38,820 bases of DNA from a virus. A model generated the notes under the pieces. It did not search any database. It saw nothing but the letters and a program-made list of their open reading frames with translations, and had not been told where the DNA came from. This document shows positions 6,594-23,042 of the stretch, one piece after another. The translations under genes were made by a program, and so were the position numbers. The stretch lies in IMG/VR virus record IMGVR_UViG_3300036945_000079, positions 1 to 38,820 of that record; one strand, written 5' to 3'. The first letter of the stretch is position 1, and the number at the start of each line of letters is the position of its first letter.

Positions 6594-7039
6594 TACGCGA
6601 TCCGAATGATGGCCGTCGATGCAGCGGCTGCGGGGAACACGATGCTGAAGTCGCCAGCGGTCGAGGTCTTGGCCGAGCCGAAGTCCAAGATGACGACAGA
6701 CGGGTTGGTGTAAGTATGGGCCGGCGTCGTGTTATAGATCATCGCGCCGTAGGCCGTGATGGTAGCACTGGTGAACGTCAGATCAGCAAAATCAGTGAAG
6801 GCTGTTGTGCCGCTGGTGGTAGGGGTGACGTTGGTCAAAGCGCCGCCGCCAGCGGCATAGGAGCCGGATGCGCCCACCTCGTTGGTGGCCGTGTAGGCCG
6901 TGGTCGTTGCGTCAAATGCGGCGCTGTTGCTGTACAGAGCAAGCTTGAAGGTATCGCCGCCAGAAGTACGGAAGTCATGCACACCCTCAAGAAGTTCGTC
7001 CTTGAACGAGGTAGTCATAAAGTTGCCAGAGAATGCCAT
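6593..7039 (-). CDS. Predicted virion structural protein
   Basis: This 148-aa protein contains '[25 protein letters not shown]' and '[11 protein letters not shown]', a pattern repeated in many phage virion proteins next to head-tail adaptors. It is beta-rich with few charged residues. AGGAGG precedes the ATG by six bases and the ATG overlaps the preceding stop as TGATG. It could be a tail or decoration protein; function is not established. Confidence 0.7.
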
Positions 7040-7341
7040 CAGAGCCTCCTGATAAGTTCAGCTAGGTCAGGGCGACCAGCATCGTTGAGCGCATTATACA
7101 CAGTTGTGCGGTCGCTGGCGATAGCCTCGCGGATGTAGGCCTCCACAAGCTTTTCGATCTGATCCTTGAATGCCAAAGCCTGATCCCTGATTGCTGGCGG
7201 TGCAGATCCTGCAACGTACATCAGCTTATCAGCGCACCGGGCCGCAATCTCTTCCGGGGTAAACCCACGGCCGTGGCTCGTATGCACGGTCACGATCGGC
7301 GTCAACGGCAAATCCATAGACATCGCGGCAGGAAAACTCAT
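7039..7341 (-). CDS. Conserved small phage protein of the head-tail block
   Basis: This 100-aa, mostly alpha-helical protein has the segments 'HGRGFTPEEIAARCADKL', 'SAPPAIRDQALAF' and 'SDRTTVYNALNDAGRPDLAELIRRL'. I recall very similar proteins in podoviruses of marine bacteria, always near tail or adaptor genes, without a proven role. GGGGAG lies before an ATG that overlaps the adaptor stop as ATGA. It may be an internal or connector-associated virion protein. Confidence 0.72.
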   Translation of the reverse strand: MSFPAAMSMDLPLTPIVTVHTSHGRGFTPEEIAARCADKLMYVAGSAPPAIRDQALAFKDQIEKLVEAYIREAIASDRTTVYNALNDAGRPDLAELIRRL

Positions 7342-12590: not shown

Positions 12591-12664
12591 GTTGGCGCGG
12601 GTTATCCCCAGCAACATATAGGCGGCTTGGGTTTTCCACGCAACAATTAGGTTAGCGCGGGTTA
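12591..12664. repeat. Pair of 14-base direct repeats upstream of terS
   Basis: GTTGGCGCGGGTTA at 12591-12604 and GTTAGCGCGGGTTA at 12651-12664 differ at one base and are exactly 60 bases apart, centre to centre. One copy sits beside the terS start and the other covers the stop codon of the HNH gene. Sites next to terS are common binding sites for the small terminase subunit, so a packaging role is possible. They could also bind a regulator of the late promoter lying between them. Confidence 0.6.
12615..12643 (-). promoter_or_regulatory. Candidate sigma-70 promoter for terS and late genes
   Basis: On the minus strand, TTGCGT (12643-12638) and TATATG (12620-12615) are separated by 17 bases. 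The start of transcription would fall about 40 bases before the terS ATG. The hexamers match the consensus only moderately. It would give the late genes a start independent of the early promoter at 21.1 kb. Confidence 0.5.
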
Positions 12665-13384
12665 GATATACATCCAGCCGGGTTTGCTCGTGTCTTCACC
12701 GCCGCGATGATATTCGCCGCTAAAGCTGCCCATCTGGCAGTATCGGGAAACCGAATGTGCGCCTAAGCCCAAGGCTTCCGCTGCCAATGTGGCGCTAGGA
12801 AAATTTCCATACGGCGTTTGCACCGGCTTAGCACATGGATGCGTCGCCCGATTTTTCAAATGCCGACCCAGTTGCTCGCCCTTAGCGCCGCGACCCTTAG
12901 CCCGCATGTCAGCCATGTTTTCCATGTAGGTTCCAGATTTCAAATGAGCCGGATTGACGCAGGCCGGATTATCGCAGGTGTGCATGACAACCTCAGCCGT
13001 TATGTCGCCGGTTGCCAGCGCGTGTGCCATCCGATGCGCCAACACCGTATGCCCACCCAACGAGATCATACCGTATTTGCCATTGGTGCGCGAACCAATC
13101 CAAATGTGGCAAGCATCCTTGCCGCCGCTGGCATCAATCTTACGGCGAAACTTATCGTTCAATTCGCTCGACCAATTCGGCAACAGCAACATAACCCCAG
13201 CGCCAACAGAAAGCGCGTTCCTAGCACGGGTTGTCACGCCCTTAACCTGTGCGGCCACGTTGGCATCATACTTCCGCTGATACTCTTGCCGCAGCTTTGC
13301 CCGACGTTCGCGCATGTAGCAGGCTTGGCACATGCCACGCACGATGGCGTCCCGGTCAGGATGATTTTTGCAGGAAGTGTCCAT
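12662..13384 (-). CDS. HNH homing-type endonuclease with N-terminal zinc finger
   Basis: This 240-aa protein has an N-terminal Cys/His cluster 'CKNHPDRDAIVRGMCQACYM' (likely a zinc finger), a central HNH nuclease core 'AHRMAHALATG...VMHTCDNPACVNPAHL', and a C-terminal 'YGNFPSATLAAEALGLGAHSVSRYC' that resembles a NUMOD-type DNA-binding helix. It probably makes a site-specific break and spreads as a free-standing homing gene. It interrupts the early region and terS, with its own promoter upstream and an AGGAG seven bases before the ATG. It may alternatively have been recruited for packaging, as in phages whose HNH proteins aid terminase. Confidence 0.88.
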   Translation of the reverse strand: MDTSCKNHPDRDAIVRGMCQACYMRERRAKLRQEYQRKYDANVAAQVKGVTTRARNALSVGAGVMLLLPNWSSELNDKFRRKIDASGGKDACHIWIGSRTNGKYGMISLGGHTVLAHRMAHALATGDITAEVVMHTCDNPACVNPAHLKSGTYMENMADMRAKGRGAKGEQLGRHLKNRATHPCAKPVQTPYGNFPSATLAAEALGLGAHSVSRYCQMGSFSGEYHRGGEDTSKPGWMYI

Positions 13385-14611: not shown

Positions 14612-15090
14612 GCTTTCTCATCCTTGGCTTCGACCGGGCCACGGGATTGATCCTGATACTTGCCGCTGTACGCCGCAGGTTCTGCCAGTTGGCTAAAGAT
14701 CACCTGCGCTATGCCTGACCCCGCCTTGATGTGCAGCGGCTTTAGCCCGTGATGCACCAGTTCGAGGGTCAGGAACCCGCGCCAACCCGGCTCGATCACC
14801 GTGTTGAATACCGCCAGCCCGCGCCTTGCCCATGTGGACTTGTCGTGGACAACGCCGACCAGATCGTAGGGCATGTCAAACTCTTCTACCGCCGACGCGA
14901 GGGTGAAGCGGCCTTGCTTCCATTCGCCGTCGACCGACACGCCATGCTCACCGAAAAAAATATCTTCGGCTATTCTTATATCGTAGCCTGCCAGCGATAA
15001 TCCGTGGCTGACCCCGTTTAATATATGCTTGCTGGTCAGCATATCTTTAATCGGCTCGGCTTTAATTAGTTCTCTGCCATTTATGATCAT
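14608..15090 (-). CDS. dcd: dCTP deaminase / dUTPase-like protein
   Basis: This 160-aa protein belongs to the dCTP deaminase/dUTP diphosphatase fold. Diagnostic segments are 'LSLAGYDIRI' (31-40), 'VHDKSTWARRGLAVFN' (81-96, with the conserved Ser85 and Arg89/90), 'IEPGWRGFLTLEL' (99-111, with Glu110 at the place of the deaminase catalytic Glu) and 'YQDQSRG' (145-151) near the C-terminus. The Glu and the 'GYDIRI' favour dCTP deaminase over pure dUTPase. It would supply dUMP/dTTP or limit dUTP during phage DNA synthesis. GGGAG lies six bases before the ATG. Confidence 0.85.
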   Translation of the reverse strand: MIINGRELIKAEPIKDMLTSKHILNGVSHGLSLAGYDIRIAEDIFFGEHGVSVDGEWKQGRFTLASAVEEFDMPYDLVGVVHDKSTWARRGLAVFNTVIEPGWRGFLTLELVHHGLKPLHIKAGSGIAQVIFSQLAEPAAYSGKYQDQSRGPVEAKDEKA

Positions 15091-15223
15091 GTCGAACTCC
15101 CGTTTGATTGTGCCATCGTGCTGCTCGCCTGCTCTGACCGACGTACTCTGCGGCCCTTACTTACTGTTAACCATCGTCCGAGATCGTCTCCATTTGCCGG
15201 CGTTATCATGCTGCTGTTTGCTA

Positions 15224-15325
15224 GGATTTCCCCTATTGCAAACTACCGGCTTGCTGCGAATGCGCCACAGGCGGCATGCAGTGGCGGACTCGTCCGCCGC
15301 AGGTAGTTTACTATAGGGGAAATCC
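15224..15325 (-). ncRNA. Predicted three-way-junction structured RNA
   Basis: Long stem P1 joins 15224-15247 with 15302-15325: 22 of 24 positions are Watson-Crick pairs. Of the two mismatches, one becomes a G-U pair only in minus-strand RNA, favouring the operon direction. Inside P1, P2 (15254-15281) is CTGC/GCAG, a two-base bulge, ATGC/GCAT, a one-base bulge, GCC/GGC with a triloop; P3 (15283-15298) is GGCGGA/TCCGCC with a tetraloop. Junction strands are 6, 1 and 3 bases. No family was recognised. It lies in the leader between two replication genes, so it could be a cis-acting element (antitermination, processing, or protection) or a released small RNA. Confidence 0.65.
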
Positions 15326-15394
15326 AGCAGCGGAAGATTTGTTTTTGCATGTTTTCCGCCACTGGTCCGCCACTGAAAAACCCCACTGGCGGAC
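15280..15394. repeat. Cluster of TCCGCCACTG direct and inverted repeats
   Basis: TCCGCCACTG occurs at 15355-15364 and 15366-15375; its complement CAGTGGCGGA is at 15280-15289; a related TGGCGGAC at 15387-15394 forms an 8-base inverted repeat with GTCCGCCA at 15365-15372. A partial TCCGCCGC lies at 15293-15300. Such iteron-like clusters beside a primase-helicase gene are typical of replication origins, though they could also be protein-binding sites or RNA hairpins. Confidence 0.5.
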
Positions 15395-15395
15395 A

Positions 15396-17717
15396 TCAAA
15401 ACTGCTCTCCCACACGGCTGGTTGAACGCAGGCCCTTGCGGTCTTTGTACTGCCCGGCCGACCTGTATGTGAATTCTTCCAGCAGGCCTGTTTCGAGCCA
15501 GTGCTTGATGATGCGCTTGGCTTGCGCATCGTTTTTCGTGTGCTTGGCGCTGTCGAATTGGTAGTTCGTTATAACACTTCCCGCGAACCGTTCTTTGTCT
15601 TGCGGTCGGCTGCTATAATGCTCCACGCCGCCGTCCGTTAAAATACCGGCGTTGATTAAGCTTAGGATCCTGTTGACGGTCTTTTCGTCCATTCCCTCCC
15701 ATTCGTCTGGGAGTGTGAACGGCACGCAGACGCCGACGTATTCCCCGTTGCCGATTTTGACACCGACCATCTGCCTGTAGACTGACGCGGCGGCCGGCGG
15801 TGCGAGGTTGGCTTTGCCGTCGTCGACCCTGAATATGCCTCTGGCGTCGTCCAGTGGTATGCCCAGCTTGACCGCGTCGTCCTCGCTGATCTTGTTTATG
15901 ACGCGGGCTGCTCGGACGGCCCCTATGACTGCGGATGCCCCACGCACGCTGTCGATGCCGGCGTCTTCACCGTTGCCTTTGCGGATGTGGTGGACGAGGG
16001 CTATGCCGCAGTTGGCCTCGTCGGCCACGCGTCGGATCTCGGCCACGACGGCGTTGACCGCGCCGTTATCGTTCTCAGATACGTTATGGGCTGCAACCAG
16101 CGGATCTATGAAAATCATGCCGATGTCCCACTCCTTTATCTTGCGCACCATGTAGTCGACGAGGGCTATGTTCGGGATGACACCGTCGCGGGTTTGCGTG
16201 CCGAATTTCATGCTGAAGTCTCGGCCCGCGCTGACGAAAAGCTTGCCCTCGACCTCTTCCGGCGTAAGCCCGTAACGTTGCATCGCTGCGGTGATACGCC
16301 GGTCGATTTCCTCTAACGTGTCCTCTAAATTTATGATCCAGACGTTACAGCGTTCGTAGACCTTTTCGAGCAGCAGTTCGCGCCCGGTGCAGATGCACAG
16401 CCCCTCGACGATCTGCAGGCTTGTCTTGCCGATGCCACCGGCGGATGCCAGCAGGCTGACGAAGGACCGCAGGTAATGGTTGCCGTAGATCCACCTGCGC
16501 GGCGGTATGTTGATCCCCAGCTTGACCTTGTACGGCACGGGCCACTCGGCCGTCGGGGCTGGTGGCTCCGCGCTGCCCATGGGTATGTCGATGTAATCTT
16601 TTGTTGCAGGCTGATCCAATTGCTTGGGCTGGACGTAGTCGAAGTCGTCCAGCGGGCTGACGGGTATGTCGGACGGCGGCGATGTTGCTACATTCGGCTT
16701 GATCTCCGCGCCGTAGGCTCGCACGGCCGCCTTGAAATCTCCGCCATGTTCGAAATGTGCAAATAAGTCGAACGCGTCGCCGTAGCAGTAAGCGTTGTCG
16801 CCCATTGATTTGGATCTACCGATGGCGGCGGCTGCATCAGATCCAGACAGGCTGACCCAGTGCGTGCCGAAGTTCTGCGTGGCGTAAGATCCGCTGGATT
16901 GGTATCTCGATTTGTAATGGTCGGACGATCCGCGACGCTCGTATCCGTACTTTAGCAGCAGGTCGGCGATGCTGTGCGCCTCGTTGAATGCGTCGACCGG
17001 GTTGGCTTCGGTCGGGTTGTTTAGCCTCCGCTCGGCCCGTTGCTTTTCCCTCTCACGGCGGCCAGCCTCGGCTTGCTCGAATGCGAACCGGCGCTGCTCG
17101 GCACGCCTGTCAACTTCCTGCATGATCGGGCTGTCACTGGTCAGTGCCACGTTGTTCGACCGCACGATGGCATGATCGTAGAACAGCGGCTTGAGATCCG
17201 GCCCACGCTTGGCCAGCGGGATGTTCGGCAGGTAGATCGGCTGACCGCATCGAGCCAGTGCGCCGTCAGGGATAATCCCGTGCTGCCGGAGTAGGTCGAA
17301 AAATGCGGATTGGATCTCCTCGTATGATGCCCCGTCGACAGGGGACGCCAGAGGCAGCAGGACGCGCCATTTGAGGCGATCCGGGCTTGCCCCAGACGAC
17401 GAGTAGACGATCATGCTGACATCGCCCAGCACGTCTCTGACGGCCTGTATGACGTCGGCCTTGCCGGGGTTTCCTTGGTCTATGTCGATGGCCAGCATGC
17501 GGAATGTACCACGTTCGCGCTGGGCGTCGTGGGATCGGCCGTCGTGGGCTGTGTAGGTCGACGGTATGAAGAAATCTGCGTCGGCTTTGTCTTTGGCCTG
17601 CGGTTCCTTGACCATCTTCACGATGTCGGCCCAGCTTATGCTTGGGTATGTCTGGTCTGGCCTGTCGATCAGCGTGAAGTAGCTGCCGTGCGCCATGAGG
17701 AAGCGAATGTCAGCCAT
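15396..17717 (-). CDS. Bifunctional primase-helicase (AEP-like N-terminus, RepA-type ATPase)
   Basis: This 773-aa protein probably starts replication. The N-terminal region (about 1-185) has 'MLAIDIDQGN' (D78, D80), 'YSSSGAS' (105-111) and 'KWRVLLPL', as in archaeo-eukaryotic primase-like domains. A charged coiled coil (about 200-235) follows, then 'GDAFDLFAHFEHGGDFKAAV' (313-332). The RecA-like ATPase has Walker A 'ASAGGIGKTS' (424-433) and Walker B within 'GMIFIDPLVAAHN', then 'GIALVHHIRKG'. This layout matches RepA-like helicases with AAA_25 domains. The start ATG 17717 lacks a clear Shine-Dalgarno; the in-frame TTG at 17822 lies in the terminator hairpin of an opposing RNA and is unlikely. 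Confidence 0.88.
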   Translation of the reverse strand: MADIRFLMAHGSYFTLIDRPDQTYPSISWADIVKMVKEPQAKDKADADFFIPSTYTAHDGRSHDAQRERGTFRMLAIDIDQGNPGKADVIQAVRDVLGDVSMIVYSSSGASPDRLKWRVLLPLASPVDGASYEEIQSAFFDLLRQHGIIPDGALARCGQPIYLPNIPLAKRGPDLKPLFYDHAIVRSNNVALTSDSPIMQEVDRRAEQRRFAFEQAEAGRREREKQRAERRLNNPTEANPVDAFNEAHSIADLLLKYGYERRGSSDHYKSRYQSSGSYATQNFGTHWVSLSGSDAAAAIGRSKSMGDNAYCYGDAFDLFAHFEHGGDFKAAVRAYGAEIKPNVATSPPSDIPVSPLDDFDYVQPKQLDQPATKDYIDIPMGSAEPPAPTAEWPVPYKVKLGINIPPRRWIYGNHYLRSFVSLLASAGGIGKTSLQIVEGLCICTGRELLLEKVYERCNVWIINLEDTLEEIDRRITAAMQRYGLTPEEVEGKLFVSAGRDFSMKFGTQTRDGVIPNIALVDYMVRKIKEWDIGMIFIDPLVAAHNVSENDNGAVNAVVAEIRRVADEANCGIALVHHIRKGNGEDAGIDSVRGASAVIGAVRAARVINKISEDDAVKLGIPLDDARGIFRVDDGKANLAPPAAASVYRQMVGVKIGNGEYVGVCVPFTLPDEWEGMDEKTVNRILSLINAGILTDGGVEHYSSRPQDKERFAGSVITNYQFDSAKHTKNDAQAKRIIKHWLETGLLEEFTYRSAGQYKDRKGLRSTSRVGEQF

Positions 17718-17731
17718 AGATGCACAGGCAG

Positions 17732-17760
17732 TTGCATGGTGTGATGAGGTGATATATAAA
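17732..17760 (+). promoter_or_regulatory. Sigma-70-like promoter of a rightward small RNA
   Basis: TTGCAT (17732-17737) and TATAAA (17755-17760) are separated by exactly 17 bases on the plus strand, opposite to all genes around it. Transcription would start near 17767 and meet a strong terminator about 60 bases on. No protein frame of useful size lies between. Confidence 0.7.
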
Positions 17761-17766
17761 CATGGT

Positions 17767-17837
17767 GCGAGGCGTTCTCCCTGCGTTGCATTGTGCTTAG
17801 GCCCGGTTGGATCCTCCCCCAACCGGGCCTCTTTTTA
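17767..17837 (+). ncRNA. Candidate small RNA, antisense to primase leader, with C-rich loops
   Basis: The predicted transcript of about 70 bases begins after the promoter at 17732-17760 and ends in a rho-independent terminator. Two hairpins can form: a weaker one (about 17766-17790) with loop TTCTCCCTG, and the terminator hairpin with loop ATCCTCCC. Both loops carry anti-Shine-Dalgarno-like C-rich sequence. This plan resembles the CcsR/'cuckoo' small RNAs of alphaproteobacteria, which expose CCUCC motifs in loops. It is also fully complementary to the leader of the primase-helicase mRNA, so cis control of replication is a second possibility. Confidence 0.65.
17799..17837 (+). terminator. Rho-independent terminator of the rightward small RNA
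   Basis: A perfect stem of 12 pairs joins 17799-17810 (AGGCCCGGTTGG) with 17819-17830 (CCAACCGGGCCT) around an 8-base loop, followed by CTTTTTATT on the plus strand. The minus-strand copy is not followed by a T run, so it ends only rightward transcription. Confidence 0.88.
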
Positions 17838-18263
17838 TTGTCTCGCCAGCTTACCTTTGATGCCGGGGCTGTTTTCGCCAGTGCGAGATTTGCAGTATTC
17901 TATGAACTTTGGCATGTTCAAGTTCTCCTTTTGTGTTCCCCACTTAAGGTTGTTAGCATTATTGTTCATTGCATCCTCATCAATATGGATGACAACATCC
18001 ATCCCGTCAGGTGCTGGACCGTGAAACGCTTCGCACACAAGCCTATGAACTTTCATGTTTCCGTAGAACTTTGCACATATGTTCATAAACTCATGCCTAG
18101 CTGTTTTAGATGCGCGAGTAATGTAACCAAACGTAGGCTTTGGCTCATACTTTCTTAATCCACCATGAGGCATTTTTGCCCATCTTTCTGGCAGCAAAAT
18201 CCTGCCAATTGAACTTGCCATGATTCCCGGCTTCGACGGGACTGGCTTCCAGATTTCTTCCAT
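17835..18263 (-). CDS. HNH endonuclease with NUMOD4-like N-terminus
   Basis: This 142-aa protein begins 'MEEIWKPVPSKPGIMASSIGRIL', close to the NUMOD4 motif of homing endonucleases, then has the HNH_3-type core 'KVHRLVCEAFHGPAPDGMDVVIHIDEDAMNNNANNLKWGTQKENL'. It contains the expected H-N-N residues ('VIHIDEDAMNNNANNL'), although the usual 'HIDGNKxNN' is altered to 'HIDEDAMNN'. It is likely a free-standing homing endonuclease inserted between ssb and the primase-helicase. Its ribosome binding site is partly hidden in a hairpin (18272-18304). Confidence 0.88.
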   Translation of the reverse strand: MEEIWKPVPSKPGIMASSIGRILLPERWAKMPHGGLRKYEPKPTFGYITRASKTARHEFMNICAKFYGNMKVHRLVCEAFHGPAPDGMDVVIHIDEDAMNNNANNLKWGTQKENLNMPKFIEYCKSRTGENSPGIKGKLARQ

Positions 18264-18269
18264 TCAGAT

Positions 18270-18304
18270 CTCCTTTAGACTTGATGCGTTATCAAGCCTA
18301 AAGG
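18270..18304 (-). promoter_or_regulatory. Hairpin sequestering the ribosome binding site of the HNH gene
   Basis: On the minus strand, CCTTTAG-G-CTTGAT (18304-18291) pairs with ATCAAG-T-CTAAAGG (18285-18272) around a 5-base loop, the G and T forming a wobble. The 3' arm contains AAAGG of the AAAGGAG Shine-Dalgarno (18276-18270) for the ATG at 18263. In a long read-through transcript the site would be closed; a transcript starting inside the hairpin would leave it open. This matches the logic known for T4 I-TevI. Confidence 0.7.
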
Positions 18305-18323
18305 ATTTGTTGTGGCCATGCAA
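18295..18323 (-). promoter_or_regulatory. Candidate internal promoter overlapping the RBS hairpin
   Basis: On the minus strand, TTGCAT (18323-18318) lies 17 bases before TAGGCT (18300-18295). The -10 is weak against consensus but close to the TAGGTT of the early leftward promoter. Its start site would fall in the 5' arm of the hairpin, so transcripts from it could not close the ribosome binding site. Confidence 0.4.
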
Positions 18324-18344
18324 GCTAGACTTGCCAACATGGCC
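18314..18344 (-). other. Stem-loop directly after the ssb stop codon
   Basis: GGCCATG (18314-18320) pairs with CATGGCC (18338-18344), and an inner CAAG/CTTG (18321-18324 with 18330-18333) extends it. There is no T run on either strand, so it is more likely an mRNA-stabilising or processing structure than a terminator. Confidence 0.5.
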
Positions 18345-19007
18345 TTAATCAAAAGGGATTTCGTCATCCAGATCGGCAAGCTTCGGTTTAGCCTGCGCGG
18401 TGGTAGACTTCACCTCAAGTTCAAACGGATCTTCCGCCGGCTTCTTGACCTCGACCTCGTCGAAGTCATCCATGCCATTGTCGCCGTACTTGGCTTCTGT
18501 GACTTGGACTGCATCGAGCAGTAGGCTGATGCCACCGTTTCCGTCTGGGTCAACCACAGCGACGGCCCATGCACGCACAGTGCCGACCGAGCCACCCCAG
18601 AAGTCCAGCTTTTCCATGGGCTGCTTTGCGCCGTCGATCACGGTCGGTGCTTCGTTGCGGTCACCGTTCTTCTTCGTGCCGTTACGCTTGGCCGAAAACT
18701 GCATGAAGCCTGTCGGGTTGCCGTTGCTGTCTTTCAGCCGCTTTGCGCCGAAGACAGTTTTGAACTCAGGCATCTTGGTATTGCGGGTGCGGCACTCGGC
18801 GTAGTGCGCTTTCAGATCGGCGACCAAGGCTTTGGCCTCGGCTTCGGGCATGTCGAATGTGACCGACCATGCAGCGTTGCTGGCCGTGGGTGCGCAGGGT
18901 TCGCTGCGCTGCGTGGCCGTGTTGAAGCGGTGCGTCTGGTGCAGCTTTGGGAACTGGAGCGTGACGTTTTTCGCCAACACTTTCTTGAAGTCTGAATTGT
19001 CTGCCAT
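18345..19007 (-). CDS. ssb: Single-stranded DNA-binding protein (DUF2815-like)
   Basis: This 220-aa protein has the pattern of phage SSBs of the DUF2815 type: 'FKKVLAKNVTLQFPKLHQTHRFN', 'AWSVTFDMPEAEAKALVADLKAHY', 'WGGSVGTVRAWAVAVVDPDGNGGISLLLDAVQVTE', then an acidic tail. The last residues 'DLDDEIPFD' closely match the C-terminal tip of bacterial SSBs ('DDDIPF'), which recruits partner enzymes. It would coat single-stranded DNA during replication and recombination. AAAGGAGA lies before ATG 19007; an upstream in-frame start at 19067 has no such signal and is rejected. Confidence 0.85.
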   Translation of the reverse strand: MADNSDFKKVLAKNVTLQFPKLHQTHRFNTATQRSEPCAPTASNAAWSVTFDMPEAEAKALVADLKAHYAECRTRNTKMPEFKTVFGAKRLKDSNGNPTGFMQFSAKRNGTKKNGDRNEAPTVIDGAKQPMEKLDFWGGSVGTVRAWAVAVVDPDGNGGISLLLDAVQVTEAKYGDNGMDDFDEVEVKKPAEDPFELEVKSTTAQAKPKLADLDDEIPFD

Positions 19008-19029
19008 GGTGTTCTCCTTTGAAGCAGAT

Positions 19030-19833
19030 TTAGAAATCCGAAAAGACATCCTCTTCGGGCAGTTCAACTTGCCAACGCGGCAGGTCGATCACGTTAACCA
19101 AATCCCAACCTGTCCGATAGTCGTTGGACGCTTCGGCGTTGGCGATCTGGTATAGGGTCTGCGTCACCTTCATGTCGGCTTGCAGGATGTATTCGTCGGA
19201 CAGCGTGTGTGCGCACACTGCATACGGCGCTTCCTTCTCGACGCACAAGAAGTAAAATTCCAAGCCGCCGGCGCCGTGCTGCTGCATGCAGCGACGGTAG
19301 AATGCCGCCTGCAAATCGTAACCGTACCGGCGCAGATCACGCGGGAATCCGTTCGGGCTGGCATCCTGCGTTGTCTTGATGTCGAACATCAGGTTCATGC
19401 TGGGGATGTATCCATCGGGCCGGCATTTGATCTTCACGCCGGTTTGTGCGTCCTCTGCGAAGAAGCTGCCTTCGGCTACCAGATCGGCGGCTTCAAGCCA
19501 CATCTTGCCAGCCGGGTGCGCTCGGACGGCTTCGGCCATGCGTTCGGCCAGATCATAGTCGGCTTCCGTGAGCAGTAGCTTGCCGTCCAGATCGGCGGCC
19601 AGCTTGAGATCCTTCCACTTGTTGCCCCGGCGATCTTCGGGGCCGCGCACGATCAGATCCTTTTCCGGCTCGAGGCAAAGCGCATGCACGGCCGTGCCGA
19701 GGTCGAACGCCGCGCTGGATTTGTAAACTTTGTTCTTCCAGTGCAGCAATGATTTCAACGCAACGGCTTTGACATCGCTGCTGCTGATCTCCGGCCGTGC
19801 GTGGTAGGCTTCGTTGGTTAGGTCAAGTTGCAT
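19030..19833 (-). CDS. PD-(D/E)XK exonuclease, RecE/Cas4-like
   Basis: This 267-aa protein has the order of motifs of phage PDDEXK nucleases (DUF3799-like): 'FDLGTAVHALCLEP', 'GVKIKCRPDGYI' (metal Asp), 'LMFDIKTTQDASP' (D-x-K), and 'YGYDLQAAFYRR' (the QxxxY motif). The protein opens with 'EAYHARPEISSSDVK', a common opening for RecE-like nucleases. With SSB and the RuvC-like protein it forms a recombination set. A GTG four codons upstream is possible; ATG 19833 is used. Its 5' end overlaps the next gene by 16 bases. Confidence 0.85.
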   Translation of the reverse strand: MQLDLTNEAYHARPEISSSDVKAVALKSLLHWKNKVYKSSAAFDLGTAVHALCLEPEKDLIVRGPEDRRGNKWKDLKLAADLDGKLLLTEADYDLAERMAEAVRAHPAGKMWLEAADLVAEGSFFAEDAQTGVKIKCRPDGYIPSMNLMFDIKTTQDASPNGFPRDLRRYGYDLQAAFYRRCMQQHGAGGLEFYFLCVEKEAPYAVCAHTLSDEYILQADMKVTQTLYQIANAEASNDYRTGWDLVNVIDLPRWQVELPEEDVFSDF

Positions 19834-20171
19834 GTGATCACCCACTGTTCCCGTTTAAACTTGCGATGGTAGGTTTTGTAAATTTCCCTAATTCTACCGG
19901 CTGAGACATTCATGCCCGCGCCGATGGCCTTGAATGTCATGCCGCCATCATACATCCTCACGATTTCCTCACGTCTCGCCTCCGCGATTTCGATAGAACG
20001 TATCTTGTCTCCGGAGCATCTCACCAACATGGGCAGCAACTCTTCGCAGTAAATCCTGCTGACATTGATGCCGTCCACTTTGATTGACGCATTTCGAATT
20101 GATACTTCTGCATCAGGTCCAAACTTATTTTTGATCAAACTCATTTGGTCGATCACGTCGGTTACCTTCAT
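19818..20171 (-). CDS. HTH-containing hypothetical protein
   Basis: This 117-aa protein ends with a basic helix-turn-helix-like region 'ARREEIVRMYDGGMTFKAIGAGMNVSAGRIREIYKTYHRKFKRE' (read in pieces: 'MTFKAIGAGMNVSAGRIREI'), similar to sigma region 4 or recombination directionality-type folds. The N-terminal half has no recognised family. GGAGG lies five bases before ATG 20171, which overlaps the ruvC-like stop as ATGA, so the upstream ATG at 20183 is rejected. Likely a DNA-binding regulator; target unknown. Confidence 0.68.
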   Translation of the reverse strand: MKVTDVIDQMSLIKNKFGPDAEVSIRNASIKVDGINVSRIYCEELLPMLVRCSGDKIRSIEIAEARREEIVRMYDGGMTFKAIGAGMNVSAGRIREIYKTYHRKFKREQWVITCNLT

Positions 20172-20611
20172 TTCTTCCTCCATCCATAGTAGGCGATCAA
20201 TGCACTTTCGGCTCGTCCGTCATCCTTAACCCTAGCCCACTGATCGGCGGCGTCGGGGAAGTATTGGCTGGCCAGCGCACGGCTGGCATTCTTGTCGGTG
20301 GTCAGGTGCATGGATTTCTTCCACGCACTTGGGTCAACCTCAAACGTCGGCACGCCGGCGAAGAACAGGCACGCCTTGAGTTCGCCGTATGCCACCGCGA
20401 TGGTTACGGCGTTTTTGATGCCAATCATACGCGGATAGAACGGGCGTTCGAGCCACGCGCACTTGACGACGCCGATGTCGCTAATAAGTTGACGCTTGCC
20501 GTCGATCGTTCCCGGCATGTCGTAGGTTGTGACCGACAGTGCGCCCTCGTAATCGTCCATGACCGCGAAGGCGCCCTGCTTACCCGGGTCGATGCCGATG
20601 ATGCGGGTCAT
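20168..20611 (-). CDS. RuvC-like Holliday junction resolvase
   Basis: This 147-aa protein opens with 'MTRIIGIDPGKQGAFAVMDD', the first RuvC motif with catalytic D8. It continues with 'CAWLERPFY' (probable acidic residue), 'NAVTIAVAYGELKACLFFAGVPTFEVDPSAWKK' in pieces typical of RuvC-fold proteins, and a C-terminal 'DDGRAESALIAYYG', with the last acidic residues. It would resolve branched DNA before packaging. ATG 20611 has GGGGGAGG upstream and overlaps the preceding stop as ATGA; an upstream start at 20641 is rejected. Confidence 0.85.
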   Translation of the reverse strand: MTRIIGIDPGKQGAFAVMDDYEGALSVTTYDMPGTIDGKRQLISDIGVVKCAWLERPFYPRMIGIKNAVTIAVAYGELKACLFFAGVPTFEVDPSAWKKSMHLTTDKNASRALASQYFPDAADQWARVKDDGRAESALIAYYGWRKK

Positions 20612-20877
20612 GCCTCCCCCGCCGCAATCTCGCCACCGCAAGCCAGATAGCCGCAGCCGTCAACCCAGTTGTCCATGTTGTCATGGTTCGACTTGATGCG
20701 GGCCAGCTTGAGCAGCGTCATCATCACGGCCACGTCGGCGGCCGATACGTTGACGTCAAGGTGTGCAGACCAGTAGGCCGCGATCAGGCCGAAGTTGCGT
20801 TCGGCGTCGCCATGCGTGGCCGCCCTGTCTTGGGTGACATACGTTTTAGCTAAGTCAAGGATTTCACTTCGGGTCAT
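20608..20877 (-). CDS. DUF6378-like protein
   Basis: This 89-aa protein contains 'DRAATHGDAERNFGLIAAYWSAHL', 'SAADVAVMMTLLKLARIKSNHDNMDNWVDGCGYLACGGEI', a pattern I recall as DUF6378, frequent in phages of proteobacteria. The conserved His/Asp/Glu residues recall all-alpha NTP pyrophosphohydrolases of the MazG type, but this is inference. GGAG lies seven bases before the ATG. It overlaps the HTH gene by 14 bases. Confidence 0.8.
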   Translation of the reverse strand: MTRSEILDLAKTYVTQDRAATHGDAERNFGLIAAYWSAHLDVNVSAADVAVMMTLLKLARIKSNHDNMDNWVDGCGYLACGGEIAAGEA

Positions 20878-21046
20878 AGATCATCTCCACATAGCTTTTC
20901 AGGATCTTTAACGTGCCTTCGCGGGGTTCCTGCTTGCCCTGCCAGATCCTCCAGAGTGACGAATAACTCATGCCGCAGAAACGGGCGGCGTCGGCGATCT
21001 CGTTCTTCGGGATCAGCCGCTTTAGTTCATCTACGGTGTAGACCAT
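20864..21046 (-). CDS. Small HTH regulator (Cro-like), first leftward gene
   Basis: This 60-aa protein holds a helix-turn-helix 'EIADAARFCGMSYSSLWRIWQGKQEP' (about residues 14-39), in the size range of Cro-like repressors. It is the first gene of the leftward operon, next to the divergent promoters, so it probably binds the repeats there and controls one or both operons. AGGAG lies before ATG 21046; the in-frame start at 21100 would overlap the promoter and is rejected. No partner CI-like repressor was found. Confidence 0.72.
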   Translation of the reverse strand: MVYTVDELKRLIPKNEIADAARFCGMSYSSLWRIWQGKQEPREGTLKILKSYVEMIYDPK

Positions 21047-21071
21047 GGGATTACTCCTGTCGTGTCCGGCG

Positions 21072-21100
21072 AACCTATGCGGATGCGCAGATGCGGTCAA
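21072..21100 (-). promoter_or_regulatory. Early leftward promoter
   Basis: On the minus strand, TTGACC (21100-21095) and TAGGTT (21077-21072) are 17 bases apart. The spacer holds three ATGCG units (plus strand 21077-21096), possible operator half-sites. It lies about 25 bases before the HTH gene's start codon and drives the long leftward operon. Confidence 0.65.
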
Positions 21101-21111
21101 GCGAAATTATT

Positions 21112-21123
21112 TGCGTTGACGCA
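21112..21123. promoter_or_regulatory. Candidate operator between divergent promoters
   Basis: TGCGTTGACGCA is an inverted repeat of TGCGT and ACGCA with a two-base centre, placed between the two -35 boxes. TGCGCAT also occurs in both promoter spacers. These are likely sites for the nearby HTH protein. Confidence 0.5.
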
Positions 21124-21134
21124 TCATTTTGTTG

Positions 21135-21163
21135 TTGACGTGGCTTGCGTGTGCGCATAAGTT
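21135..21163 (+). promoter_or_regulatory. Early rightward promoter
   Basis: TTGACG (21135-21140) and TAAGTT (21158-21163) are separated by 17 bases; a CATAAG two bases left is an alternative -10. The start would lie about 25 bases before the first rightward gene. It faces away from the leftward promoter. Confidence 0.65.
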
Positions 21164-21195
21164 GGTATCACGAACAAGCAAACAAGGAACCTGCC

Positions 21196-21471
21196 ATGAC
21201 AAAGATCGCCATCAGCACCAACGAATACGGATCTAAGCACCTGAACGTGAACGGGCGGTTTGTCGCCGTCAACAGTCGCATCACCGAGATCAACATGGTG
21301 TCGACTGCGCGCTGGGAAGGCGTCGCCGGCGGGGCCGCGTTCTGCATCTTTGGCGGCAAGGAAGCCGGAGGCGCAAGGAACGATTGGTTTGTGCAATGGG
21401 ACGCCCACGGCGAGCATACGTTTAAGGTCGATAGCGCGACCGCCGCCTGCAACATCATTGAGCGCGCTTGA
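21196..21471 (+). CDS. Hypothetical protein, first rightward gene
   Basis: This 91-aa protein ('MTKIAISTNEYGSKHLNVNGRF...') looks like a small soluble beta-rich protein with Trp residues and a Gly-rich middle ('GVAGGAAFCIFGGKEAGG'). No family recognised. AAGGAA lies seven bases before ATG 21196; the upstream in-frame start at 21145 would lie within the promoter. As the first gene after the rightward promoter it is probably made immediately after infection. Confidence 0.72.
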   Translation: MTKIAISTNEYGSKHLNVNGRFVAVNSRITEINMVSTARWEGVAGGAAFCIFGGKEAGGARNDWFVQWDAHGEHTFKVDSATAACNIIERA

Positions 21472-21480
21472 TCCAAAAAC

Positions 21481-21496
21481 GGGGGCTTCGGCCCCC
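21481..21496 (+). other. Stem-loop GGGGGC-TTCG-GCCCCC
   Basis: A perfect six-pair GC stem with a TTCG tetraloop lies between the first and second rightward genes. It is the stem form common in bacterial terminators, but no T run follows, so it may be an attenuator, a stabilising element, or a weak terminator that separates the first gene from the rest. Confidence 0.6.
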
Positions 21497-21523
21497 ACCA
21501 ACCCCCAACAAAAGGAAACCAAA

Positions 21524-21619
21524 ATGCGTGAATTTCTTGAAGACCTGATCGGCTGCTTGTGCCTTTTCGCCCTCATCCCCGCCATCTTCTTTGTGCTGTA
21601 CGGGCTGGGGTGGCAGTGA
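21524..21619 (+). CDS. 31-aa single-TM small protein
   Basis: The tiny protein has a short acidic start ('MREFLEDLIG') and a hydrophobic helix (about residues 10-28, 'CLCLFALIPAIFFVLYGL'). AGGAAA lies eight bases before the ATG and the TGA stop shares a base with the next ATG (TGATG), so it is likely translated. Such small membrane proteins are common in early phage operons; function unknown. Confidence 0.68.
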   Translation: MREFLEDLIGCLCLFALIPAIFFVLYGLGWQ

Positions 21620-21798
21620 TGGCGATCAAGCTTAACTCGAAGGACACACGGCTCGTTTTGATTGGCCTAAAGGTCTACCGCCTTTACGTTGCCGACGAAC
21701 CAGACACGCCAGCCAAGGCGACTGAGTTGGCAGACATTGACCGCCTGTGCGCGACTTATTTGCGGTCGGGCAGGGCGTTGGTAAGGGTGGGGAAATGA
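21619..21798 (+). CDS. Small hypothetical protein
   Basis: This 59-aa basic protein ('MAIKLNSKDTRLVLIGLKVYRLYVADEP...') is not recognised. The ATG shares a base with the preceding TGA and its own stop overlaps the methyltransferase start as ATGA, so it belongs to a tightly coupled chain. Confidence 0.65.
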   Translation: MAIKLNSKDTRLVLIGLKVYRLYVADEPDTPAKATELADIDRLCATYLRSGRALVRVGK

Positions 21799-23042
21799 CA
21801 GCTTATTACAACGAATATGACCCCAAGGCTGCGGCTTGGCTGCGGGAGTTAATCAAACAAGGTCACATCGCTGATGGTGTGGTTGACGATAGGAGCATCG
21901 AAGATGTCAGACCAGATGAACTTGCTGGATTTACTCAGTGCCACTTCTTCGCCGGCATTGGTGTCTGGTCCTACGCTCTCCGCCGCGCCGGATGGGCCGA
22001 CGACCGACCAGTATGGACAGGATCATGTCCGTGCCAGCCTTTCAGCGCGGCAGGCAAAGGAGCAGGGTTTGATGACGAGCGGCATTTGTGGCCAGCTTTC
22101 CACCACCTCATCAGCCAGTGCCGACCTGACGTTGTCCTTGGTGAGCAAGTTGCAAGCAAAGACGGCCTTGGTTGGCTCGACCTTGTACACGCTGACTTGG
22201 AAGCAACGGGCTACGCCAGCGGGGCGGTCGATCTCTGCGCTGCGGGCATCGGTGCGCCGCACATCCGCCAGCGGCTCTGGTGGGTTGGAACACGGCTGGC
22301 CGACACCGACAACACAAGACGACAATTGCTCACGGATGCAAAACCCGCAGGAGTATGCGGAGAAGCGTCTGGCAAGAGACAACAAGTGCAGCAACCTAGC
22401 ACAAACGGCACAAGCGATGGCAGCATGGCCGACACCAGCATCACGGGATTACAAGGGCGAGAGTGGAGCGGGCCGACAGGAACGCAAGGATCATCCAGCG
22501 GATACAGTTCCGAATGCGGCGGCATTGGCGGGCTGGACAACTCCAATTGTGCAGGACAGCAAGCAGAGCGGCCTAGCCCCATCTGGAACGGGTCACAGCA
22601 TGAAGTTGTCATTCGAGGTGCAGCAATCGGGATGGCCGACACCACGATCCTCGGACGGGGAGAAGGGGTCACGCACGATGGATGGCTGCGAGGCGGAGAT
22701 AGCACGGAAGGGTCGGCTGGACGATCTGCCGTCGATGGCGACTTGGGCAGCGGGTTGGCCGACACCAGCAGCATCAGACGGGGAGAGAGCGGGGTCTGGG
22801 ATAACAGCGGGAATGACGGGAACCAGCCTGACGCAGATGTCAAAAATGATCGGCCCAGCCCGACTAACGGCCACTGGCGAGATGCTGATTGGCTCTTCTG
22901 CCGCGATGGAAAGTGGAGGCCAGTTGAACCCGGCACATCCCCGTTGGCTCATGGGTCTGCCGCCAGAGTGGGACGACTGCGCGGTTACGGCAATGCAATC
23001 GTTGCCCAAGCAGCGCAAGCCTTCATCGAAAGCGTGATGTGA
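21795..23042 (+). CDS. dcm: DNA cytosine C5 methyltransferase
   Basis: This 415-aa protein has the conserved motifs in order: motif I '[12 protein letters not shown]' (51-62), motif IV 'PCQPFS' (catalytic C80), motif VI 'GEQV' (E117; EQV replaces the usual ENV), motif VIII 'IRQRLWWV' (157-164), and C-terminal 'GYGNAIVAQ' (motif X). The N-terminal '[17 protein letters not shown]' is typical of phage members. The part between motif VIII and the C-terminal motifs (about 165-365), where the target recognition domain sits, is low in complexity with repeated 'ADT'-like units, because another gene is encoded there in a second frame. Probably protects phage DNA from host restriction. Confidence 0.92.
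21904..23037 (+). CDS. Nested 'WPTP' protein overlapping the methyltransferase in the +1 frame
   Basis: This 377-aa frame lies wholly inside dcm. ATG 21904 has AGGAG eight bases upstream; an earlier in-frame ATG (21874) has none. The sequence reads '[18 protein letters not shown]', '[12 protein letters not shown]', '[14 protein letters not shown]', then five WPTP-type units ([40 protein letters not shown]) and ends '[20 protein letters not shown]'. I recall stand-alone phage and bacterial proteins with these same features, commonly beside Dcm genes, of unknown function. A chance frame would not reproduce a known family, so the overlap appears genuine. Partner or modulator of the methyltransferase is a reasonable guess. 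Confidence 0.78.

Follow-up and report, generated by a model that had tools for sequence, protein, structure and literature searches.

How is a putative homing endonuclease gene expressed when it lies within another transcription unit, and why does it lie at that place? The window analyzed here, which is the whole 38,820-base stretch of an IMG/VR virus record, raises both questions. Its minus strand carries, in this order, a gene for a single-stranded DNA-binding protein (ssb), an HNH gene and a primase-helicase gene (Table 1). The translated ssb product ends in ...DLDDEIPFD*, an SSB-like acidic tip. The HNH gene, whose ATG is at 18263 (minus strand), encodes the nuclease domain found in free-standing homing endonucleases (PF13392), and the profile of its family matches an HNH homing endonuclease of known structure (PDB 1u3e, E = 1.7e-5). 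Its cutting activity is predicted.

Table 1. Features of the ssb-HNH junction in the window.
Feature	Position	Strand	Basis
gp2.5-like ssDNA-binding protein gene	18345..19007	-	phrog_112, E 1.5e-12
HNH homing endonuclease gene, 142 aa	17835..18263	-	HNH_3 PF13392, E 7.5e-13; phrog_959
Hairpin 1, right behind the ssb stop	18314..18344	-	Fold
Candidate -35, TTGCAT (3/6)	18318..18323	-	Consensus comparison
Candidate -10, TAGGCT (3/6), within the 5' arm of hairpin 2	18295..18300	-	Consensus comparison
Hairpin 2, 15 pairs, 5-nt loop, covers the Shine-Dalgarno sequence	18271..18305	-	Fold and covariation
29-nt core, TTTAG-nnn-TGAT-n5-ATCA-nnn-CTAAA	18274..18302	-	Family comparison
Shine-Dalgarno AAAGGAG, last base alone outside the 3' arm of hairpin 2	18270..18276	-	

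The presence of a hairpin over the ribosome-binding site (RBS) of the window HNH gene was confirmed. Hairpin 2 is formed on the minus strand by TCCTTTAGGCTTGAT (18305-18291), the loop AACGC and ATCAAGTCTAAAGGA (18285-18271), with AAAGGA of the Shine-Dalgarno (SD) sequence in the 3' arm. The original prediction of a stem with one G-U pair that buries the SD therefore holds, except that the stem has 15 pairs and not 13. As had also been proposed, the wobble exists only in the coding orientation; on the plus strand the G-U turns into A-C and the stem is interrupted. The region has a folding energy of −20.8 kcal/mol for 58 nt (z = −5.7), which none of 200 shuffles equalled. When the stems overlapping the ribosome sites of 49 window genes were compared, hairpin 2 was the longest (15 pairs; next 9, median 5). 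The same comparison found no RBS hairpin at the second window HNH gene (12662-13384, minus strand; 240 aa, phrog_1872), which has an AT-rich leader upstream. A search of the window and five relatives against Rfam 15 gave no match at the gathering threshold. The coding strand has no U tract, and hairpin 2 was thus ruled out as a terminator.

It had been suggested that hairpins be sought at other HNH genes of related phages. Protein searches yielded one family of 79 distinct HNH loci, 55 of which contain the 29-nt core in a hairpin. We also investigated related ssb genes that lack the HNH gene. In four close relatives of the window (ssb 82-86% identical), the primase leader follows ssb directly, and the HNH gene and hairpins 1 and 2 are all missing. 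A second ssb group, gathered with one single ssb protein as query, contained the core in 7/7 ssb genes with HNH and in 0/67 without it; six related borderline core scores in this group reflected a shifted chance match of 8/13 pairs. Sequence homology picks up again on both flanks of the HNH insert. From the empty-site relatives, the second ssb group and the flanking homology, it follows that hairpin 2 and the HNH gene form a cassette, inserted sporadically beside a conserved gene, with empty alleles, in the manner of a free-standing homing endonuclease. The possibility that hairpin 2 is part of ssb was ruled out by the ssb genes without HNH, which lack it. A genome-collection search with the HNH alignment found 24 loci, mostly alphaproteobacterial; among these, the hairpin was absent from the loci of the window HNH family. 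A scan of the collection with the window HNH protein alone gave no matches.

Hairpin 1 is doubtful as part of the cassette, because locus L188 has a similar structure (6959-7209) behind an ssb gene ending in PFD* without HNH; a MazG-like gene stands there in the place of HNH. Hairpin 1 probably belongs to the ssb 3' end. The PFD* end and hairpin 1 of the window are unlike those of its empty-site relatives, a difference that would fit co-conversion of flanking DNA. On the other side of the insert, a strong hairpin lies downstream of the HNH stop (17799-17830, minus strand; GGGGGAGG in the loop). We assign it to the primase leader, because the empty-site relatives have it as well, one of them (L079) with a compensatory change. 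A conserved 17-codon leader peptide, MFIYHLITPCNCLCIYG (17710-17763, minus strand), is unchanged in length in L077-L080. Its stop codon overlaps the primase-helicase start (ATGGCTGA), which suggests translational coupling.

The leaders of the family occur in two forms. Form A, with 38 loci, has the ssb stop codon inside the 5' arm of the hairpin, and this codon is TAG in all 36 loci with a readable simple pattern. An SD is often absent from form A, and the HNH ATG often lies exactly 23 nt past the ssb stop, abutting the 3' arm without an SD. In form B (17 loci, including the window), the ssb stop is upstream of the hairpin and the arms reach over the SD. These arms covary, with UA, CG, GC and AU found at one same pair. 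The covariation score of form B was 0.394, compared with 0.165 ± 0.021 after shuffling (0/500), and slid versions reached at most 0.103. The structural pairs included 13 G-U and one A-C, counts that carry no strict probability because the sequences are related. This ratio generalises the wobble argument first made for a single stem. The idea that the RBS-sequestering hairpin is specific to the HNH gene is thus borne out by the covariation in 17 relatives, the excess of G-U over A-C and the co-occurrence with HNH. Judging from these comparisons, hairpin 2 is a selected RNA element, because it travels with HNH, its SD arms covary and its wobbles are G-U and not A-C. A chance inverted repeat, for which nothing speaks beyond the weak promoter of the window, has a negligible probability; both sets of shuffles and the outstanding stem length stand against it, and the covariation refutes it.

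Additional structures were observed in a few leaders upstream of HNH. L155 and L160 have an extra hairpin whose loop contains GGAGG and whose 3' arm contains the ATG; the two loci differ by compensatory changes. In L008, L124 and L151, a downstream sequence could compete with the 5' arm for pairing with the core 3' arm, and the resulting hairpins, which exclude each other, are a possible switch.

The core itself is conserved in sequence and length. Its length is 29 in 49/49 loci, and invariance reaches 92-100% at its TTAG/CTAA and GA/TC positions, outside the ssb coding sequence as well. At core position 7, many loci have a mismatch and keep A or T on both sides instead of pairing. In the comparisons of the family and the ssb groups, the core was found solely alongside this HNH family. 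Such invariance is not required by SD hiding alone; it may reflect protein binding, perhaps by the HNH protein, or promoter elements in the core. All four of these properties would be expected if the 29-nt dyad were primarily a DNA operator or an RNA site for a protein, most simply an autorepressing, I-TevI-like HNH protein, with the hairpin as a second function or by-product. We consider this rather unlikely, because the outer arms covary as RNA pairs with the SD, and a DNA dyad does not predict the preference of G-U over A-C.

We then return to the selected RNA hairpin and its effect on the SD. In the folding model, the unpaired probability of the window SD was 0.11 on the full RNA; it rose to 0.25 when a ribosome occupied the ssb stop and to 0.63 on the 5'-truncated RNA. 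The truncated mRNA is therefore predicted to offer the open site that had been claimed for it. An alternative pairing between hairpin 1 and the 5' arm upon ribosome arrival was rejected, because the change is merely from 0.11 to 0.25 in the model. For the other 16 form B loci, the probability on the full RNA was 0.00-0.14 in 15 and 0.51 in L154. On RNA starting in the loop, the SD is predicted to open in most form B loci, and it stays closed when a ribosome is parked on the ssb stop. We used as a held-out set ten loci that were found later and had no part in the discovery analysis. The SD was present with an unpaired probability ≤0.30 in 8/10, and one more locus had 0.34 without a recognisable SD; two cases were borderline in all. 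By fold, accessibility and covariation, the SD on read-through RNA is predicted to lie in a hairpin, as in leaders of the T4 type.

RNA without the 5' arm needs a source, and an internal promoter had been proposed for the window. The pair TTGCAT-17-TAGGCT matches the consensus at 3+3 of 12 positions. In the 180 nt around the hairpin, 29 pairs were as good, compared with 29.9 in shuffles, and a consensus scan of 15000-22000 detected no promoter-like site with at least 9/12 matches. The predicted start (~18288) falls in the loop of hairpin 2 and not within the 5' arm, where it had been placed. The relatives gave a different picture. We tested a frame with the -10 at core positions 2-7, a spacer of 16-18 nt and a cut-off of ≥9/12. 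In this frame, 8/17 form B loci reached the cut-off, compared with 0.27 expected when the upstream DNA was shuffled (0/3000), and the candidate -35 is TTGACA or TTGACC in 8/17. Several loci share a hairpin 1 whose 3' arm contains the -35 match, and many matches of the discovery set are of this kind, so they are not all independent. In the six form B loci without this common type of hairpin 1, the promoter signal remained (16/3000). The held-out loci gave 62/3000 in the original -10 frame; when the -10 was allowed anywhere in core positions 2-16, the mean was 8.1, compared with 7.19 ± 0.22 (1/3000). A very good candidate promoter, TTGACA-16-TATGAT (11/12), leads into the hairpin upstream of HNH in L324, a held-out locus. 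The promoter proposal is thus partly right: the signal is enriched at the level of the family, in both discovery and held-out sets, whereas the copy in the window is at chance level and appears weak or degenerate. RNA from the family promoters would begin in or past the loop and so would not contain the 5' arm.

Form A showed no promoter enrichment in the same frame. In 12/12 form A loci with a core-abutting ATG, TATCAT or TATTAT precedes the ATG by 6 nt, a candidate leaderless promoter, for which -35 enrichment was absent. The hairpin might also be a permanent brake, with no relevant internal promoter and a low output by stem breathing or by re-initiation after ssb. The chance-level promoter of the window is in keeping with such a brake, and the position of the form A stop and ATG, together with the missing promoter enrichment, suggests coupling. 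This explanation is nevertheless doubtful, because the form B SD is predicted to stay shut with a ribosome at the ssb stop and because form B is enriched in promoters.

The explanation that we favor, and to which we give a fair degree of probability, is an inserted HNH gene with a hairpin-hidden SD that is translated from RNAs starting inside the hairpin. A free-standing HNH gene, accompanied by its leader, has inserted downstream of ssb and ahead of the primase-helicase gene. When part of the long ssb-operon mRNA, this leader would fold into hairpin 2, hiding the SD, and the endonuclease would barely be translated. RNAs starting within the hairpin would have no 5' arm and an exposed SD, and would be translated. 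In relatives, such RNAs could come from a sigma-70-like promoter whose -35 immediately precedes the hairpin and whose -10 is part of the 5' arm; for the window, the same promoter would be weak, or RNA processing would substitute for it. As a result, endonuclease output would be uncoupled from the strong transcription of the ssb operon. The insertion, hairpin, covariation, SD sequestration, opening on truncated RNA and family promoter enrichment were all obtained in silico, and from them we infer the transcription start, the translation effect and the purpose. A T4-like late switch is without support, because none of the scanned window proteins was recognised as a phage RNA polymerase, and insulation from ssb-operon read-through would be a simpler purpose. 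It could also be that the hairpins are signals for RNA processing, for example by RNase III, between the ssb and primase messages, and that SD hiding is incidental. Two to three stable hairpins do stand consecutively at the junction, and cleavage would likewise free the SD. This explanation is very improbable, because hairpin 2 is linked to HNH and not to the ssb-primase junction, and its outer arms track the SD.

The location of the HNH genes is more surprising than the hairpin control. Each of the 79 HNH genes immediately follows a gene whose product ends in acidic-Pro-Phe (or Pro-Trp), -DDxPF-like and sometimes with a short extension; this ending is the tip of bacterial SSB. Among the ORFs of 80 aa or more at the HNH loci, 65/2,623 have it, most of them presumably the HNH-upstream genes themselves. 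Distant HNH relatives were behind an SSB-tip gene in 0/22 cases. At least eight unrelated families are represented among the upstream genes: gp2.5-like, canonical OB-fold SSB (PF00436), Erf annealing protein (PF04404), phrog_9002 SSB, DUF736-like SSB, Pam3_Gp34 (PF23977), phrog_862 and phrog_18187, besides others without a match. The HNH tree, which is poorly resolved, requires 32 changes of upstream cluster, and L101 and L102 have HNH proteins that are 89% identical behind unrelated genes. The tip Phe codon is TTT in 59/61 at HNH loci, compared with 42% elsewhere. As a constraint of the homing site, this codon is weakened by the fact that 55/67 ssb genes without HNH also have TTT. Homing of the cassette to tip-coding DNA seems to explain the location best; alternatively, HNH and SSB might work as partners. 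It is slightly better than an even chance, in our estimate, that one HNH lineage recognises the DNA coding for the SSB C-terminal tip, a short motif for protein docking that unrelated ssDNA-binding genes have in common, and so jumps between non-homologous genes with a portable leader of two modes, coupling through the ssb stop in form A and an SD hairpin with its own promoter in form B.

RBS hairpins with internal promoters are known to control I-TevI, I-TevII, I-TevIII and segB of T4 (PMC2988022); the passages on mobE of Aeh1 in the same paper describe this control too and discuss translational coupling. The leaders studied here are similar to those of T4 and Aeh1 in that a homing gene lies within another transcription unit, its SD is in a stable read-through hairpin, and a promoter, here a family-level candidate, is sited so that its RNA omits the 5' arm. 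They differ in that the enzyme lineage and phages are unrelated, a conserved 29-nt core is common to dozens of phages, the candidate promoter looks sigma-70-like and not T4 late, and there is a second leader form in which the hairpin contains the ssb stop codon. The locus looks like a T4-type control that arose in an unrelated family; the window promoter is at chance. According to the passages on mobE, this gene is also a free-standing HNH gene with a hairpin over its RBS, but it lies in ribonucleotide-reductase genes, whereas the window family is always behind SSB-tip genes. The T4 segG enzyme targets gene 32, the T4 ssDNA-binding protein gene (PMC2988022), and is likewise a free-standing homing gene aimed at ssb; however, it is a GIY-YIG enzyme with one target gene family, whereas HNH genes are found here behind many unrelated ssb families. 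In N4-like Achromobacter phages, ssb is followed by two NUMOD4/HNH_3 genes (PMC3915230), which are thus also HNH_3 homing genes right behind a phage ssb; the passages on this locus give gene order only and describe no hairpin or generality.

In the literature searched, which takes in few subscription papers, we found neither this leader nor the SSB-tip rule described. Hairpin control looks like a variant of the known T4-type gating, and the SSB-tip targeting rule may be new. A second unrelated hairpin-gated family, of conserved structure, would make such gating a recurrent solution for parasitic genes in essential operons. The location rule (79/79 vs. 0/22) suggests that a homing enzyme can track a short protein motif from one unrelated gene to another through the DNA that encodes it. 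The rule also offers a marker with which unknown phage ssDNA-binding proteins could be spotted.
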